A stretch of DNA of 64,000 nucleotides from Candidatus Desulfopertinax cowenii (GCA_001899445.1 MPOA01000006.1:496001-560000), one strand, 5' to 3'; positions 29,202 to 37,162 are shown, counted from the stretch's first letter. Translations and numbers: made by a program. The notes: generated by a model from the letters alone, not told the origin.

Positions 29202-29483
29202 CTAAGTGAAGCATAGACTTTCGATCTGGCCCTCGATACACAGTTCGTCCGGGAGAATATTACGCAGCACCAGCTCACGTCCCCGCACGGCGACTTCCCC
29301 GGCAGGCACCAACACCCGCACGGACTCGGTGGTATACTCCACGATTCCACGGTGGTTCTCTATGACCACGTGTACGTTCCCCACCAGAATGATCTTTGGC
29401 AGGTCCAGGGCAACCTCGCCCGGGATTTCCAGGACCTCGGCCATGGTCCGCCGCAACTTATTCCGAACGTTCCGCCAGCCCAA
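29202..29483 (-). CDS. yqfC: Sporulation protein YqfC
   Basis: A 93-residue protein with the YqfC pattern LEIPGEVALDLPKIILVGNV, then IENHRGIVEYTTESVRV and RILP-like ILPDELCIEGQI. It partners YqfD in sporulation. The start is TTG 29483, seven bases after GGGGAGG; that ribosome site is buried in a hairpin (29491-29521), suggesting translational control. Upstream of it the usual rpsU-yqeY neighbours are displaced by the accessory module 29595-37162. Confidence 0.9.
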   Translation of the reverse strand: MGWRNVRNKLRRTMAEVLEIPGEVALDLPKIILVGNVHVVIENHRGIVEYTTESVRVLVPAGEVAVRGRELVLRNILPDELCIEGQIESLCFT

Positions 29484-29594: not shown

Positions 29595-31070
29595 TCATCC
29601 TTCCGCGAAATTATTGTCCTCCACTGCTCTTAAAAATACCAGGGTAGCCACGTACCGGCCACCATCATCGTACACCGCGGCGATTTCACAAGTCACCTCG
29701 TTCAAGTCGAGCGCTACCCGGTTGAGGGACCTAGACCCGACATTGTCGATGATAGCCGTAGCCAACCGCGAATCGACCTCGCTGATGTGCCGGCCCTTTT
29801 CCAGGGAGCCGAGATAATAGTTGGCGAGCATGTTGGCCAGCATTATTTCGTGGTTTTTGTCTACCACCACCAGTCCGCTCCGGTCGACCTCAACGAGTTT
29901 GGCGAGGATGTTGCCGCCGATCTTTTCCTGGTCGTGGTTCAAAGTGATCACCACGAGGGAACCGAGCAGTTTCCCTTCCTTGAAGATGGGCGAGCAGACA
30001 AGTTCCAGCAATTGGCCCGAACTTTTAAAGATCGTTTTTCTACTTTCACCGTGAACTATGTCCGGCACCGGTCCAAAGATTTCCTGGAACTCAAGGTCCT
30101 TCAAAGTGCTTTTTTGATCGGCGAAAAACTTGTGCGCCGCCTCATTTGCAAAAACAATCTTGCCCGCCTGGTTGCAAATGACAACTCCTTCCTTCAGGTG
30201 GTTGAAGACGGCAAAGTTGATATCTTCAAAGTAGGCATTGATGCTGCTGTACCACAAATTAACCATGAATTTGTAGAGCGCAAATTCGTAAACACAGAAA
30301 CACAACACAAAAAGCAGGCCCATAAGGATGATTACCCGGTAAGCTTCAAAGGGGTTGTCCTTCTGGAAAAAGCAAATCTGCCAGGAGCTGTGCTTGATAC
30401 TAGCGGTATCAACCCGGTAGGGCAAGTCATCGCGAAAACTGCTTTGCCAGGCGGAAAAACCCTTAGCTTTTTCCGGATCGAAGGGCCAGACCACCGGGTG
30501 ATGTCCCCCGTCCAGCAGGGCGACCTGAAAGTCTTCACCCGCAAACAGCTGGGTCAATTCCCAGAAGAATTCGCCAGCTTTAAAATCAATCAGCAAGACG
30601 CCTTGCAGCTGGGTTGCTGTTTTGCGCACCGGGGTTCCGACCCTGACCTTCAAGTCCTCCCCCCCCGTAACCAACGTTTCCCCCACCAGCGCCCGCGTAA
30701 AGGCCGGAGAATGGGCGATCGGAAAATCCACCCCGTCGGTGGTTGAATCAATAAGGCGGCCGTCCGTGTCCACCAGGTAAACCGCGGTTATTCTCGCATC
30801 CCGACCGGCAATCTCTTGCAGCACGGCACCGGTAGGGCTGTCCCCCCGCTCCAACTTGCGGGCCGCGCCCTCGGCGAAGGAGGCGATGTCGTGGGTAAAG
30901 ATTTGGGCCTTGCTTAAAGCGGCCTGCTGGAGGCTGTGCTCATATTCGGTCATTGCTTTTGTGATCAGGCGAAACTCCACGATGGAAAAACCAGTAATCA
31001 CGATCAATAAAACGATGATGACGCAAAAAGACGGAACGCTTCGGTTTTCGGGGGGTTTAAACACGACCAT
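29595..31070 (-). CDS. Membrane Cache/PAS sensor protein without catalytic output domain
   Basis: A 491-residue protein. Helix 1 is at about 14-35; an extracytoplasmic Cache-like domain (about 36-235, with ITAVYLVDTDGRLIDSTTDG) and a second helix follow (RVIILMGLLFVLCFCVYEFAL). Two cytoplasmic PAS domains come next: KEGVVICNQAGKIVFANEAA and DRSGLVVVDKNHEIMLANML. No kinase, GGDEF, methyl-accepting or DNA-binding domain follows. It lies 12 bases downstream of the response regulator gene, so it probably modulates the adjacent NarX-like kinase by protein contact. Confidence 0.75.
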   Translation of the reverse strand: MVVFKPPENRSVPSFCVIIVLLIVITGFSIVEFRLITKAMTEYEHSLQQAALSKAQIFTHDIASFAEGAARKLERGDSPTGAVLQEIAGRDARITAVYLVDTDGRLIDSTTDGVDFPIAHSPAFTRALVGETLVTGGEDLKVRVGTPVRKTATQLQGVLLIDFKAGEFFWELTQLFAGEDFQVALLDGGHHPVVWPFDPEKAKGFSAWQSSFRDDLPYRVDTASIKHSSWQICFFQKDNPFEAYRVIILMGLLFVLCFCVYEFALYKFMVNLWYSSINAYFEDINFAVFNHLKEGVVICNQAGKIVFANEAAHKFFADQKSTLKDLEFQEIFGPVPDIVHGESRKTIFKSSGQLLELVCSPIFKEGKLLGSLVVITLNHDQEKIGGNILAKLVEVDRSGLVVVDKNHEIMLANMLANYYLGSLEKGRHISEVDSRLATAIIDNVGSRSLNRVALDLNEVTCEIAAVYDDGGRYVATLVFLRAVEDNNFAEG

Positions 31071-31082
31071 AACACCCTTCCG

Positions 31083-31697
31083 TCATTTAAGCAGGCCCTT
31101 TTTTGCCGCTGAAGCAAGGGCTTCTTCAATGGTTTTAACTCCCAACTTGGCACAGATCCCCTGGATCCTTCTCCGCAGGGTGGAAAGACTGATATGCACC
31201 CGGTTGGCTACCGATTTCTGGTTCTCTCCGGTGGCGAGCAACTGCAAAATTTGCAACTCCATTTCGGTGAGTTCGGTATCACGATTCATGAAGAACAGCT
31301 TGCTGCTCAAACCGGGATACAGGTAACGGCCGGTCTTCATCACGATATTAATGGCGGACTTGATTTCGCCAAAGGAGGCGTACTTGGGAATGAAACCGTG
31401 CACCCCGTGTTTCATAGCCTTTCTGACAAACAGGGGATCATCATAGATGGTTAGCGCCAGGTATTTGAGCCCGGGCCGGCGGGCGCCGATCTCCCGGGGC
31501 AGTTGCAGCCCGTCTCCATCGGGGAGCCCGATGTCCAGCAGGACAAGGTTGATGTCCGCCGGCAGGTTTTCCACCGCCTCTCGGTAGGTACCCGCTTCGG
31601 CCACCACCGTCATGTTGGCCTCCAGTTCGATAAGTCGTTTCAACCCTTCCCGAACGATCTGGTGATCTTCCACTAGCATGATCTTAATTTTGGGCAC
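31083..31697 (-). CDS. NarL/FixJ-type response regulator
   Basis: A 204-residue protein. Receiver domain: MLVEDHQIVREG, phospho-acceptor in LVLLDIGLPDGDG and the usual Thr in YLALTIYDD; a Lys is retained in GFIPKYAS. C-terminal LuxR-type helix-turn-helix: TEMELQILQLLATGENQKSV, NRVHISLSTLRRRIQGICAK. Its start overlaps the end of the kinase gene by 14 bases, so the two form a two-component pair. The divergent transporter operon beginning at 33724 is the obvious target (inference). Confidence 0.9.
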   Translation of the reverse strand: MPKIKIMLVEDHQIVREGLKRLIELEANMTVVAEAGTYREAVENLPADINLVLLDIGLPDGDGLQLPREIGARRPGLKYLALTIYDDPLFVRKAMKHGVHGFIPKYASFGEIKSAINIVMKTGRYLYPGLSSKLFFMNRDTELTEMELQILQLLATGENQKSVANRVHISLSTLRRRIQGICAKLGVKTIEEALASAAKKGLLK

Positions 31698-33300
31698 TGG
31701 ATGTCTCCTCCCAGTTGATGGGAATGGTAAGGGTCACCACGAAGCCGCCAGCAGCATAACCGTACGCCAGGTTACCGCCCAGCAGCTTCGCGCGCTCCTT
31801 CATGCCCCATAAGCCTTTCCCTTCGACCGGTTTCTCTCCGGGTGGGCCGTTATCTTTAACTTCGATTTTCAGGGTCCCACCCCGGACCGCAAAATGAATT
31901 TCTACCTTGGAGGCCGCGGAATATTTGATTACGTTGGTCAGGGCCTCTTGCACAATCCTATAGATGGCGATTTCCTCCCATGTTTCAAGCTTGAGGGTGT
32001 GGGATTCGTAATAAATGCGCGTCTCGATTCCGTACGCTTTTTCGAAATAGGAAACGTACGACTCCAGGGCCGGGATTAACCCCATTTTATCGACCAGGTA
32101 CGGGTGGATCTCGTTCATGATATTGCGCATGTCCACGGCTGCGTGCTGGCAGTGGGTTCGGAGCTGTTCCAGGTCTTTACGGATGGCGTCGGCGCCGCCG
32201 GGGGCCAAATCATTGCTTTGCCGCAACAGGTGGTCCAAAGCGCGAATCATAGTTGCCATGTACCGGCCCATCCAATCGTGAATCTCGATGGAGAGCCTTT
32301 TGCGTTCGGTTTCGATGCTTTCAAAAAAGAAACGTTTGTTTTCAGGGCGCTCTCCCGCCGAAAAGATCATCGCCGCGCCGGTCAGCATATTCAAGGTGAA
32401 TAAGGGATAGTAATCGACGGTTAAGCAGGTTTTTCGCCCGGCATAAGTATAGGATGTTTGATGATCGATCAACCGTTGCTGGTGAAGGATGACGTGGAAA
32501 AGCGGTTCGAACACATTCTGTAAATGTGGGAAGTGTCCCAACGCTTCGTTCAGGGACTTGTTGAGGACTGCGTCCGCAGCCACTTCCAGCAGCTTTTCTG
32601 CCGCCGCGTTGATTTTTTTTACTACTCCTCTCCGGTCGGTTATAATCACGGCGTTACGCCAGTTGTCCGTCAGGTACTTTACATGCGAATACTGTACGAA
32701 CAGGGGCAGCGCCACCCCGAGCAAACCGGTCACCAACAAAGCCAACGACAAAAGGGCCAGCGAAAACAGGAGCAGCCGGTCCCTGCTTTCCAGGATCGCA
32801 ATTGCCGCCGCCGCCTGCTCTACCTCGTGTTCCAAGGCGGTGATGACGAGCGCGGTTTTATCCCTCAGCTCGGTGGCCAGATATTCGTGTTCCGACTGCA
32901 GGGCAGCGGCAGCCTTACTTCCGGCCGCCGGTTCTGCATGGGCGAGCTCTCTTTCCACGAAGAAAAGGTAGTGCCTGTTGGCCGCAATCAAATCCGCCAC
33001 CTTGTTTTTCGTGGGGAGATCCACGGCATAGTACAGATCCAACTTATCCCGGATCGTTTCCGAGCTGTAACGCCGGAAATCGTCCAGGTGGCGCTGGTCA
33101 GCATGGCGCATGTAGTTCTCCACGCTGGCTAGCGAGCGCTCCACGTTCAGGGATAGCTGGTAGCCCGCGGCAAGATGCGCCGAGTGGCGAGCCAGGTCGC
33201 TAATTTTTTTAGGTGCAAGATAAGCCCTACCAGCTAACAGTAGCGCCAGGATGACCAACAGCACGGTCAGGGCGATGCTGATCCAGATGTAGGTTTTCAT
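31684..33300 (-). CDS. NarX/DesK-type sensor histidine kinase
   Basis: About 538 residues from ATG 33300, chosen because the first membrane helix (WISIALTVLLVILALLLAG) begins directly after it. An extracytoplasmic all-helical domain of about 150 residues resembling four-helix-bundle sensors lies between helices 1 and 2. A PAS domain (VIITDRRGVVKKINAAAEKL) follows. The HisKA_3 dimerisation domain has the phospho-His in SIEIHDWMGRYMATMI; the ATPase domain shows IVQEALTNVIKYSAASKVEI and GKGLWGMKERAKLLGG. The signal is unknown. A longer form from ATG 33381 is possible but lacks a ribosome site. Confidence 0.88.
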   Translation of the reverse strand: MKTYIWISIALTVLLVILALLLAGRAYLAPKKISDLARHSAHLAAGYQLSLNVERSLASVENYMRHADQRHLDDFRRYSSETIRDKLDLYYAVDLPTKNKVADLIAANRHYLFFVERELAHAEPAAGSKAAAALQSEHEYLATELRDKTALVITALEHEVEQAAAAIAILESRDRLLLFSLALLSLALLVTGLLGVALPLFVQYSHVKYLTDNWRNAVIITDRRGVVKKINAAAEKLLEVAADAVLNKSLNEALGHFPHLQNVFEPLFHVILHQQRLIDHQTSYTYAGRKTCLTVDYYPLFTLNMLTGAAMIFSAGERPENKRFFFESIETERKRLSIEIHDWMGRYMATMIRALDHLLRQSNDLAPGGADAIRKDLEQLRTHCQHAAVDMRNIMNEIHPYLVDKMGLIPALESYVSYFEKAYGIETRIYYESHTLKLETWEEIAIYRIVQEALTNVIKYSAASKVEIHFAVRGGTLKIEVKDNGPPGEKPVEGKGLWGMKERAKLLGGNLAYGYAAGGFVVTLTIPINWEETSSAQN

Positions 33301-33608
33301 TTGGTGCCCGACGTCACTCCCCAAAACGAACAGTTTATTTTGAATCGCTGTCCCTCGTTGGCGCCCCTCGTTAATGAGCATTTCGCCAGGCAGCGCCGGT
33401 TTCCTTTGTGGATCATTTTGACTCGTTTGCTTTGCCAGATTGAGCTAAAAGTGTCAGGTGGAAGAATTTGTTGCTTTACCTGGCGGGCCAAAAAATTCAA
33501 CTTGCGCTGTAAAGGTTGGTCGCCAAAAATTAAGGATGATAAAACTTATAAGTAAGGAAGGGGAAGTGTCTTAAGCGAATTGTTTTAATTTAGGAATAGG
33601 AGGTGGAA
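33301..33608. other. Divergent intergenic region of the accessory module
   Basis: This 308-base part of the kinase-transporter gap shows no convincing gene. An 84-codon frame reading 33301-33555 is not supported by a ribosome site or a recognisable sequence. The last 100 bases are clearly more AT-rich than the surroundings, as expected for the regulatory region of the divergent operon. I found no confident -35/-10 pair. Confidence 0.4.
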
Positions 33609-33686
33609 ATGCGCGCTTATTTGTTGAAGATTTTAAGGTTTGACGGTGGAGCGCAGGGCGTGATTTTTGTGTTTGGGAGTATTTAA
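33609..33686 (+). CDS. Possible 25-codon leader peptide or small membrane peptide
   Basis: ATG 33609 is preceded by AGGAGG at a good distance and opens a 25-codon frame (MRAYLLKILRFDGG and so on, ending VIFVFGSI). It closes 37 bases before the transporter start at 33724. The second half is hydrophobic. It could be a leader peptide or a tiny membrane protein. Nothing but the ribosome site and position supports it. Confidence 0.35.
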   Translation: MRAYLLKILRFDGGAQGVIFVFGSI

Positions 33687-33723
33687 GTTTATTAAGTAGT
33701 TTAAGTAAGGAGGGGGAACCTCG

Positions 33724-35496
33724 GTGAGCGAAAAGTCCAATAGCGAAGTCGTAGTAGAAGAAAAACGCCAGCCCGAATTGGTGCGGATGTTTAAGACCGA
33801 GGATTATTGGGCAATTTGGCTGGGTGCCTTGTTACTTATATTCGCTCTGATCATGGCTTTTGCCAACCCGCCGGACCCGGCGAAATTTGCCGAATACCGG
33901 GCCATTATGCAGCAGGAGGCGGAGCGGGCACCTTTTAAGACCATCGCCTATCACGAGGCCGAAATGGCGAAGGAAAAAATGCGGGCCCGCAACGAGGAAC
34001 CCTTCAAGACGCTTTATGCCTTTACGAACCGGCCAAAAGGTTGGGACACCAATCCCATTTCCGCGCTCTACTTGAGCGAGAGTGAGGCCGCGGCTATCAG
34101 GGAGGCAAACAAGGAAAGGTACGCGCAGGCGCAAGAAGCGACTGCTGCGGCCCGGGCGGCGGCGGAAGAGGCCGAGGCCGCGGCGGCGGTTGCCGGGTTC
34201 AAGGACAGCGCCTTGAATGAGCGGGCCAAGGAGGCGATCGCGGCGTGGCAGGCTGCCCTGGCCGCCGAAGCCAAGGCCAAGAAGGCGGCTACCACCCAGG
34301 CCTACAACCTTATCCCCGGTCTGGTGGTCCTGATGATTGCCATCGCCCTCTTTTTCTCCATTGGTTTGCGCTTCATGGGCCACAACGTCCGGCGATACCT
34401 GGTCGCTTTTCCAGTGGTGTTTGCGCTCGCGGTACTAGCCTATGTTTTGGCCAACCAGGCCACTATGAAAGCGCTGGGCCTGTCATACGTGCTCTTCGCC
34501 CTGGTCCTGGGCCTTTTGATCGCCAATACCATTGGAACCCCCAACTGGTTGAAACCGGCGGTCCAGACCGAATACTACATTAAAACCGGCCTGGTGTTGT
34601 TGGGTGCGGGCATCATGATCGGCAAAATTGCCCTCATCGGCATTCCAGGGATCTTTGTAACCTGGGTGGTTACCCCCATTGTGCTTATAGCCACTTTCTG
34701 GTTCGGACAGAATATCCTCAAAATACCGTCTAAAGAGCTGAACATTACCGTTTCGTCCGACATGTCGGTCTCTGGTGTTTCGGCGGCCATCGCCACGGCC
34801 GCGGCCTGCCGGGCCAAGAAAGAGGAGCTGACCCTGGCCATCGGCATGTCTATGGTCTTCGTGGCCATTATGATCTTTGCGATCCCGGCAGTTGCCAATG
34901 CGCTCAACATGCACCATGTGTTGGCCGGGGCTTGGATTGGCGGCACCGTTGACAATACCGGGTCGGTCGTCGCCGCCGGCGAGTTGATCGGGCCGGTCGC
35001 GATGTACGTGGCGGCCACCATCAAGATGATCCAGAACGTCATGATCGGAGTCATTGCCTTCGGCGTGGCCGCCTACTGGGCCCTGAAGGTAGAGCGCGAG
35101 CGCTCCGGCGTGGCTGGGCAGCAGGTCGATCTCCGCTTCGGGTCGGCCTTGCGCGAGATCTGGGATCGTTTCCCCCGGTTCATCCTCGGCTTTCTCGGGG
35201 CTTCGATCGTGTTTTCCATCCTCTATACCACCATGGGGCATGACTGGAGCAAGGTGATGATTGATAACGGCGTGCTGGCCTGGGCGAACAGGTTCCGGGG
35301 CTGGTTCTTTGCCCTGGCCTTTGTGAGCATCGGCCTGGCGACCAATTTCCGCGAGCTGGCCGTGCATCTCAAGGGTGGGAAACCGGTCATCCTTTACGTG
35401 TGCGGGCAGTCCTTCAACCTGGTGCTGACCCTGCTCATGGCTTACCTGATGTTCTTCGTCGTGTTCCCCGGCATCACGGAGCAAATTGTCCCGTAA
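33724..35496 (+). CDS. UPF0324/YeiH-type putative sulfate exporter family transporter with extracytoplasmic coiled-coil insert
   Basis: A 590-residue protein, far longer than the common 330-350-residue YeiH type. After helix 1 (about 29-50) comes a soluble insert of about 145 residues ending in an Ala/Glu-rich coiled coil (QAQEATAAARAAAEEAEAAA), likely outside the membrane. The conserved transporter core follows, with YIKTGLVLLGAGIMIGK, SSDMSVSGVSAAIATAAACR and GGTVDNTGSVVAAGELIGP. The family is annotated as putative sulfate exporters, but the substrate is not proven. The GTG start follows AAGGAGGGGG. It heads a four-gene operon divergent from a two-component system. Confidence 0.85.
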   Translation: MSEKSNSEVVVEEKRQPELVRMFKTEDYWAIWLGALLLIFALIMAFANPPDPAKFAEYRAIMQQEAERAPFKTIAYHEAEMAKEKMRARNEEPFKTLYAFTNRPKGWDTNPISALYLSESEAAAIREANKERYAQAQEATAAARAAAEEAEAAAAVAGFKDSALNERAKEAIAAWQAALAAEAKAKKAATTQAYNLIPGLVVLMIAIALFFSIGLRFMGHNVRRYLVAFPVVFALAVLAYVLANQATMKALGLSYVLFALVLGLLIANTIGTPNWLKPAVQTEYYIKTGLVLLGAGIMIGKIALIGIPGIFVTWVVTPIVLIATFWFGQNILKIPSKELNITVSSDMSVSGVSAAIATAAACRAKKEELTLAIGMSMVFVAIMIFAIPAVANALNMHHVLAGAWIGGTVDNTGSVVAAGELIGPVAMYVAATIKMIQNVMIGVIAFGVAAYWALKVERERSGVAGQQVDLRFGSALREIWDRFPRFILGFLGASIVFSILYTTMGHDWSKVMIDNGVLAWANRFRGWFFALAFVSIGLATNFRELAVHLKGGKPVILYVCGQSFNLVLTLLMAYLMFFVVFPGITEQIVP

Positions 35497-35524
35497 GCAT
35501 GTAACTGGAGCGGAGGCAATAAGA

Positions 35525-35797
35525 GTGTTTAGGCGGATGAGTGTACCAGGTGGGCGCAAGCGCCCGCCTGGCAACTTTTTTCAGCGTTGGCTGGCGTTTA
35601 TCATCGGAGTGCTTCTCCTGGCGGGACTTGTTTTCACCGCTCCGGTGCTGGAGCGCCTACCGGGGCTTGGGCCCAGGATTGAAGCCCTGCGCGAAAGCGG
35701 CGTGGAGACCGGTGCTTTCTGGTGGGCTGACGTGCCCGAAGTTAGCGAGGCCGAGCGCTACATCCGGCAATCCCGCGACCTTGCCCCCGGAAATTAA
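35525..35797 (+). CDS. Small single-span membrane protein of unknown function
   Basis: 90 residues from GTG 35525, eight bases after GCGGAGG. A basic N-terminus (MFRRMSVPGGRKRPPG) precedes one membrane helix (LAFIIGVLLLAGLVFTAPVL). An external tail of about 45 residues with acidic and Trp residues (GAFWWADVPEVSEAERYI) follows. It begins 28 bases after the transporter stop, so it is probably co-translated and could be an accessory subunit. No family recognised. Confidence 0.65.
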   Translation: MFRRMSVPGGRKRPPGNFFQRWLAFIIGVLLLAGLVFTAPVLERLPGLGPRIEALRESGVETGAFWWADVPEVSEAERYIRQSRDLAPGN

Positions 35798-35844
35798 ACA
35801 CAGTCTATTAGCTCTGGCTTGATTGCGGGGAGGTGATCGCAAAC

Positions 35845-36441
35845 GTGTCGAAAAACCGGAAATATGCCGCCATCCTCGCCTATGAAGAACAATTTGCCAA
35901 AATCGTAGCCCTCCAGATCAGGGCCAGCCGTCCCAAACCCGTTTGGCATTTTTTCGTGCCCTTTATGATGGTCTTTGAATACTTAGCCGCCAAGAAGGAA
36001 ATTGGTCTGTTTGTCAGAAATTTTTTATTCGGGAGAAAACTGGCTCTTAACGCGGCCCGGGACACGATAGACGGCAAAGACCGGCAAAACAAGCCGGCGG
36101 AAATGGGGTTGCAGATTAGGGAATGGCTGTCAGCAAACGCCCTTTATTCCCCGCACATGCATCAAAAACAAATCGCGCTGGCCGATCTTCTTTTCAAACA
36201 CTACTCCCTTTTGTTTAAGGCCGAAGGCAAAGGTCATGCTTCTCTGGTCAGGAACGCCTACGTAAACCGGGTTGATTACGAATCTTTCCTGCAAAAACTT
36301 TCCGCTACGGAAAATGAAATAGACCGCCTTACGCTCCAGATGAGGGGTGAGTCAGCCGAACTGGAGTCCCAGATTTCCGTCAAACAAAAGGGTATTGCCG
36401 CTTTGAGGGCGAAAGACACCAACCAGATCTTTAGGCGGTGA
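35845..36441 (+). CDS. Unknown protein, paralogue 1 of a tandem pair linked to the transporter
   Basis: 198 residues from GTG 35845, ten bases after GGGGAGGT. The N-terminus KYAAILAYEEQFAKIVALQI is similar to that of the next gene. A hydrophobic stretch (VWHFFVPFMMVFEYLAAKK) may touch or enter the membrane. The rest is helical, with HYSLLFKAEGKGH and a C-terminal coiled coil. No catalytic motif is seen. Its fixed place after the transporter suggests a role in assembly or regulation of transport, but the function is unknown. Confidence 0.65.
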   Translation: MSKNRKYAAILAYEEQFAKIVALQIRASRPKPVWHFFVPFMMVFEYLAAKKEIGLFVRNFLFGRKLALNAARDTIDGKDRQNKPAEMGLQIREWLSANALYSPHMHQKQIALADLLFKHYSLLFKAEGKGHASLVRNAYVNRVDYESFLQKLSATENEIDRLTLQMRGESAELESQISVKQKGIAALRAKDTNQIFRR

Positions 36442-36454
36442 GGAGGCAAAGTCA

Positions 36455-37162
36455 TTGGCGTCCCTAGATGCCAGGTACCAGCTGATCATTTCCTATGAAC
36501 AGTGCTTCGCCAAAACGGTGGCCGCCAAAATTGTGGATCGGCCGGAACTTTCTCCCTGGATGATCCTGATTCCGATCATTTTCGTGCACTACCTTCACCA
36601 GCACCAGCGGTTTCGGGCGGCCGTGGACATCACCAGTAAAGAATTCATGTTTACCAAGCAAACGGCGCTTGACGCCGCTTGGCAGATGGTTCGGAACGGC
36701 GCGTCCAAGGAAGAGACCCTGGGCGAAGTGGCCGCAAAAGTGGCGGAAGATGACGCGGCGCGCCTTTCCGGGCGGGGGGCCGATTACGCCGAAAAAGCGC
36801 AAGCGATTCGCCGCGCGCAATTAAAGGAAATCGAATTGCTGATCGATCATTATGTCCGGCTTTTCAAGGCTGGAGAAGTCGGGCCTGCTGATTTACCCAC
36901 ACCACCGGGCCGAAGCCGAAAAAGAAGGCCGCTTTCCGGAAAAAACAAATACTGGGCCCTGTTGAAAAAAGCTTACCGGACCCGCACGGACTACACTCGG
37001 TTCCTTGAGCAACTGCAGCGGGCCGAAAAAGAAGTGAACCTGGCGGCAAAACGTGCTTTTAGCCAAACGGAAGGTTTTTCGGAGACCATTTCCAAGCTGG
37101 AAGCCACCACTGCTGCTTTGAGAAAGAAAGAACTGGAAGCCGTCTTCTCGTTAAAATTATAA
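36455..37162 (+). CDS. Unknown protein, paralogue 2 of a tandem pair linked to the transporter
   Basis: 235 residues from TTG 36455, eight bases after GAGGAGG and 13 bases after the preceding stop. It matches paralogue 1 in order and spacing of features: YQLIISYEQCFAKTVAAKI, a hydrophobic segment WMILIPIIFVHYL, HYVRLFKAGEVG, YRTRTDYTRFLEQL and a final coiled coil. It has an extra basic Pro-rich insert (PPGRSRKRRPLSGKN). The pair probably arose by tandem duplication and may form a heteromer. No function can be assigned. Confidence 0.65.
   Translation: MASLDARYQLIISYEQCFAKTVAAKIVDRPELSPWMILIPIIFVHYLHQHQRFRAAVDITSKEFMFTKQTALDAAWQMVRNGASKEETLGEVAAKVAEDDAARLSGRGADYAEKAQAIRRAQLKEIELLIDHYVRLFKAGEVGPADLPTPPGRSRKRRPLSGKNKYWALLKKAYRTRTDYTRFLEQLQRAEKEVNLAAKRAFSQTEGFSETISKLEATTAALRKKELEAVFSLKL

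Follow-up and report, generated by a model that had tools for sequence, protein, structure and literature searches.

A putatively two-component-controlled UPF0324 transporter module of Candidatus Desulfopertinax cowenii as a candidate for sulfur oxyanion transport

What does the transporter gene cluster between yqfC and rpsU of Candidatus Desulfopertinax cowenii carry, and what controls it? The cluster lies in a 64,000-nucleotide stretch of the genome GCA_001899445.1 (MPOA01000006.1:496001–560000; hereafter the window, to which coordinates without a locus label refer). It consists of a sensing triad (histidine kinase, response regulator, and Cache/PAS membrane sensor) and a divergent operon for a long-type UPF0324 transporter, a small single-span protein, and two NF038143 paralogs. 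Here, we propose that it encodes a transporter complex under two-component control that carries a sulfur oxyanion, with sulfite the likeliest cargo and sulfate second, and that acts in dissimilatory sulfate reduction; we consider this reading probable, with moderate confidence. An initial annotation of the window had already suggested a sulfur oxyanion as a possible cargo. This suggestion fits an apr–qmo locus and an asrC locus in other genomes and the sulfite-resistance genetics of YeiH (PMC12880088), which together point to sulfite or sulfate.

Gene content and insertion site of the module

All seven genes were found in the window as a compact 7.6-kb unit, at the positions given by the initial annotation, and their families were matched. 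The features are as follows (aa, amino acids; TM, transmembrane segment).

29202–29483, minus strand: yqfC, host gene, left insertion border, outside the module
29595–31070, minus strand: Cache/PAS membrane sensor lacking an output domain, third protein of the triad; 491 aa, two TMs (15–33 and 246–264)
31083–31697, minus strand: NarL/UhpA-class response regulator; 204 aa, Response_reg (E 3e-21) and GerE (E 2.5e-7)
31684–33381, minus strand: HisKA_3 sensor histidine kinase; 565 aa, PAS, HisKA_3 and HATPase_c, TMs 32–50 and 203–221
33440–33457, no strand assigned: candidate operator, TTGAGCTAAAAGTGTCAG, degenerate version of RTGAACnnTTTGGTTCAY
33724–35496, plus strand: long-type UPF0324 transporter; 590 aa, PF03601 (149.4 bits, E 1.4e-43)
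35525–35797, plus strand: small single-span protein; 90 aa, one TM, alternative in-frame ATG at 35537
35833–36441, plus strand: NF038143 "HYxxLL" protein, copy 1; 202 aa, all-alpha, 168.4 bits
36455–37162, plus strand: NF038143 "HYxxLL" protein, copy 2; 235 aa, 173.6 bits
37231–37428, minus strand: rpsU, host gene, right insertion border, outside the module

The minus-strand block runs from the kinase through the response regulator to the Cache/PAS protein, and the plus-strand block from the transporter through the small protein to the two paralogs. They are divergent, with 342 bp (33382–33723) between them. For the small open reading frame, a start at 35526 was rejected as out of frame; 35525 and 35537 both fit.

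The module was said to break a conserved gene order, and the relatives bear this out. The yqfC–rpsU gap is about 7.75 kb in the window, whereas it is 110 bp in G002 of the same genus and 156, 153, and 157 bp in G004, G006, and G007, respectively; therefore, the insertion is real. Another congener, G001, has a gap of 2.28 kb, occupied by convergent genes for a 452-aa UPF0324 protein and a small single-span protein. Such transporter genes are thus located at this site in two congeners.

Links of the transporter to sulfur metabolism

Using the long-type transporter as the query against genome contigs, we obtained 80 loci, whose titles are mostly from Desulfobacterota and other sulfate reducers, with a few from Clostridium, Cetobacterium, spirochaetes, and others. 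Two of them place the transporter next to sulfur genes. On a contig of an Omnitrophota-labeled metagenome-assembled genome (MAG), one strand (L074:1243–12703) carries aprB, aprA, two open reading frames, qmoA, qmoB, qmoC, the transporter, the small protein, and a DsrM-like gene in this order, with only 34 bp from qmoC to the transporter. On a Cetobacterium contig (L109), the end of asrC, encoding anaerobic sulfite reductase subunit C (TIGR02912, E 3.5e-60), is followed after 132 bp by the transporter, the small protein, and NF038143. A characterized homolog, YeiH, is the factor that contributes most to sulfite resistance in Salmonella (PMC12880088). In the YeiE–YeiH system of Salmonella and Escherichia coli, as in the window, a regulator lies beside a UPF0324-type membrane protein, which there guards against sulfite (PMC12880088). 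However, YeiE is of the LysR type and YeiH, with nine predicted TM helices, lacks the extension of about 190 residues, whereas the window combines a NarL-class regulator with an extended transporter. The YeiH and asrC evidence favors sulfite handling.

At the genome level, all 24 genomes with a relative of the Cache/PAS protein (including that of the window; one match is partial) have aprA and dsrA above the cut-off. Among 60 relatives, UPF0324 tracks aprA (40/41 versus 8/19; Fisher p 2e-6, uncorrected for kinship, aprA being common in the order).

Other evidence favors uptake. The genome of the window (1.78 Mb, 6 contigs, 99.96% complete) has aprA, dsrAB, and a single UPF0324 gene, and neither SulP (PF00916) nor DASS (PF00939) nor PiT/CysP (PF01384) was found in it, TSUP/CysZ and ABC transporters not having been searched for. 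Its own apr and dsr neighborhoods (L189 and L190), read by eye, show no recognizable adjoining transporter. Eight genomes have aprA and dsrA and lack these three families (G000, which is that of the window, G002, G006, G007, G023, G033, G050, and G058), and seven of them carry UPF0324. In their survey, Marietou et al. (2018; PMC5840216) noted that no study had identified the sulfate-uptake proteins of sulfate reducers, reported some sulfate reducers without SulP, DASS, and CysP, and suggested uncharacterized families; UPF0324 is not named there. The UPF0324 protein of the window is a candidate for the same role as the SulP, DASS, CysP, and CysZ proteins surveyed, but it lies outside that survey and in a genome without SulP, DASS, and PiT/CysP.

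The transporter could then be the main dissimilatory sulfate importer, working by ion symport and switched on by the triad under sulfate or energy limitation, and not a sulfite exporter or tolerance factor. The Mrp Na+/H+ antiporter genes adjoining it in relatives (see below) would suit such a role, as do the inventory and the published survey. However, the inventory spans three families, and each of the 44 sulfate reducers surveyed had TSUP (PMC5840216); G058 lacks UPF0324 as well as the other three; the characterized homolog YeiH acts in sulfite resistance; and the Cetobacterium locus is linked to a sulfite reductase. We regard the importer as possible but doubtful, and sulfite, moved in either direction, has a modest lead over it.

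A cargo unrelated to sulfur, such as an organic acid, bicarbonate, or an organosulfonate, would reduce the sulfur links to a shared anaerobic lifestyle. The nearest named regulators (MadR, MctR, and UhpA) and kinases (MctS and UhpB), several of which control organic-anion transport, point this way, although the scores are far below the equivalog cut-offs; CitS is among the weak fold matches, and in Clostridium saudiense the unit adjoins a glycerol dehydrogenase gene. Considering the apr–qmo and asrC linkages, the biology of YeiH, and the association with aprA, we find such a cargo improbable.

The transporter, its small partner, and the NF038143 proteins

The transporter scores far above the gathering score of PF03601/UPF0324 (149.4 versus 24.5 bits) and well below the cut-off of the YeiH subfamily TIGR00698 (63.9 versus 232.6 bits), and it bears an N-terminal extension of about 190 residues on the UPF0324 core. 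The initial description of a large UPF0324 transporter accompanied by a single-span protein is borne out. The AlphaFold2 model is confident (pLDDT 89) and shows TM1, a helical domain of about 150 aa (residues ~50–190), and a YeiH-like helical membrane core. Judged from the charges around TM1 and TM2, the helical domain would face outward. Sequence searches among solved structures turned up nothing credibly related to the transporter or to NF038143. In a maximum-likelihood tree, every long-type transporter, including that of the window, falls into one clade (support 99/97), and the transporters of other triad loci form separate clades of about 360–390 and 440–490 residues. This is no new transporter superfamily but a putatively regulated UPF0324 variant with an undescribed small partner.

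That partner, which has no Pfam or NCBIfam match, is almost invariable: a homolog lies directly 3′ of the transporter at 78 of the 80 loci with room to see it, the window among them. It is predicted to have a short cytosolic N terminus and an exofacial C terminus of about 50 aa, the outward placement following from charges.

The initial annotation had called the paralogous pair proteins of unknown class. In fact, both belong to the catalogued NCBIfam family NF038143 ("HYxxLL"; 168.4 and 173.6 bits against a cut-off of 50), and only a function is lacking; the link of this family to the long-type transporter and the small protein is an addition of the present analysis. The two copies share 26% identity. 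Copy 1 is modeled with a pLDDT of 95.5, and a fold search with it gave no confident match in the Protein Data Bank. A contig scan with the first NF038143 protein gave no match, and whole-genome searches did find the family. NF038143 lies within 0.75 kb of the transporter in 25 of 81 loci, and behind the transporter and small protein also in L052, from another member of the phylum; it is rare across the phylum (8/399 genomes) and stands away from the transporter in G001 and G004. No paper naming NF038143 was found, and nothing useful on UPF0324 in sulfate reduction.

The long transporter adjoins Mrp-type antiporter genes in the family members G003, G004, G005, and G007, which hints at sodium coupling. 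The Mrp genes are located 3′ of the transporter (L043:9538–16387, L047:5224–12059, L046:1–6412, and L049:10243–11806), and in G003 and G005 the NF038143 pair comes after them. A contig labeled Rhodospirillales (L063:9995–11761) has a transporter 70% identical to that of the window, nearer than most from Firmicutes, reflecting either horizontal transfer or a mis-binned contig. About a dozen loci have radical SAM proteins, of the SPASM type in the one scanned, near the genes for the transporter or NF038143 (e.g., L069:8638–9681, L070:13523–14587, L127:2705–3775, and L040:6342–7496).

The sensing triad and its candidate operator

The kinase (HisKA_3 and HATPase_c) and the regulator (Response_reg and GerE) exceed all gathering scores and form a HisKA_3/LuxR-type pair. 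They are not NarX/NarL equivalogs (58.3 and 75.3 bits against cut-offs of 578 and 250). Two TMs of the kinase flank a predicted extracytoplasmic region, which is followed by the PAS domain. In the Cache/PAS protein, described at the outset as a sensor without output domain, PAS_8 is above its cut-off, dCache_1 is weak (32.5 bits over residues 64–187, cut-off 45, E 8e-8), and no output domain was matched. Like the NarX/NarL, UhpB/UhpA, and MctS/MctR pairs, the window joins a HisKA_3 membrane-sensor kinase to a LuxR-type regulator. It differs from them in that their equivalog cut-offs are missed by far, the third protein is a Cache/PAS sensor, and the target is UPF0324. In UhpABC, the pair is likewise joined by a third membrane protein, and its target is a transporter.

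The kinase has full-length relatives in G450, G465, and G021 (50–57% identity) and in many more genomes (33–41%). Those of the Cache/PAS protein (34–41%) were found in 22 order-level genomes beside the kinase and UPF0324, that is, the triad is near UPF0324 in 22 of 22 such genomes; no full-length relative of either protein was found in the seven family members searched. In all 20 triad regions fetched, one or more UPF0324 genes diverge from kinase–regulator–Cache in identical order, with a regulator relative of 203–230 aa at the corresponding place and often a second UPF0324 gene behind the first. UspA-like proteins, recognized by eye, are repeated neighbors of the triad and UPF0324 (L170:2301–2765, L172:1270–1755, and L177:10662–11117); the one scanned had no Pfam match.

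The palindrome RTGAACnnTTTGGTTCAY is present in 21 of 21 kinase–transporter intergenic regions (log-likelihood ratio 315, versus 206 or less in shuffles). Its profile was built without the window, from the triad loci of 20 relatives, in each of which no site in the 10- to 18-kb locus scores higher. As a predicted operator, it is strong for the triad family, and the window copy is only suggestive. Co-regulation of the two blocks receives only indirect support, from the divergent layout and the common palindrome.

A new combination, and other sensor systems in other lineages

Transporter with small protein, transporter with NF038143, and triad with UPF0324 each recur elsewhere, and the lack of co-occurrence that would have refuted the initially proposed module was not found. 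The complete seven-gene set was observed only in the genome of the window, since at other loci the triad goes with different UPF0324 clades and long-type transporters stand without it; this genome pairs the triad with a transporter clade unused by other triad loci. Long-type units of Desulfobacterota are often accompanied by a divergent kinase and a σ54 regulator of their own. The three kinases scanned carry a Tll0287 heme-Cache domain, and most neighboring kinases have CxxCH; examples beside σ54 regulators and the long transporter are L070:7258–9738, L136:7267–9684, and L090:6017–7990. The sCache_heme (DUF3365/Tll0287) domain has been described as a c-heme, NO-binding sensor (preprint, PMC12889525). 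Such kinases are likewise divergent sensor kinases beside the long-type unit, but they bind c-type heme and pair with σ54 regulators, whereas the window kinase lacks the domain and its regulator is NarL-class. Thus, different divergent two-component systems accompany one transporter unit in different lineages.

The clade mismatch, the long transporters without triad in the family members G002–G007, and the weak operator copy in the window would also be expected if triad and operon were unrelated neighbors that had landed together by chance, with no regulatory link. We think this very unlikely: the triad lies beside UPF0324 in 22 of 22 other genomes in identical divergent order, the best intergenic motif site sits at the expected place, and many long-type loci have independently a divergent kinase–regulator pair.

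Proposed mechanism

We return to the regulated sulfur oxyanion transporter, against which several observations weigh. Of the 80 loci, two show the unit directly linked to apr/qmo or asr, and the long transporter is also present in MAGs labeled as taxa for which sulfate reduction is not known. UPF0324 is called "putative sulfate exporter" by annotation only, and the absence of other transporters is confined to the three families searched. The fold search gave weak likeness to NhaP, NHA2, and CitS (best E 0.02, TM-score <0.4), in agreement with the resemblance to a Na+/H+ antiporter noted for YeiH (PMC12880088). The window copy of the palindrome (33440–33457; 12.2 bits) ranks third in 64 kb with the symmetric profile and is degenerate and not unique; since the profile fails to single it out, the operator claim is weak for the window. 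Neither the close relative L193 nor L194, whose sequence begins inside the kinase gene, yielded an operator above threshold.

From the sequences and models, we infer the following scheme. An outside (extracytoplasmic) signal would be read by the kinase and the Cache/PAS protein. The NarL-type regulator would bind palindromes between the divergent blocks and set the expression of the transporter operon. The anion would be carried by the UPF0324 core, probably an NhaA/CitS-like alternating-access carrier. The helical domain of the transporter and the C terminus of the small protein, both predicted to face outward, are likely to assemble into one complex. The soluble helical NF038143 proteins may be accessories on the cytoplasmic side, dispensable because they are absent from many loci.

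More tentatively, UPF0324 with its small subunit may represent an unrecognized class of dissimilatory sulfate/sulfite carriers, the main uptake route where SulP, DASS, and CysP are lacking, with sensors repeatedly exchanged. The module offers a concrete candidate for sulfate/sulfite transport, with a small partner, a dedicated regulator, and a predicted operator, in a genome from which the three usual families are absent. As NF038143 and the Cache/PAS protein are tied to the UPF0324 transporter, the question becomes testable.

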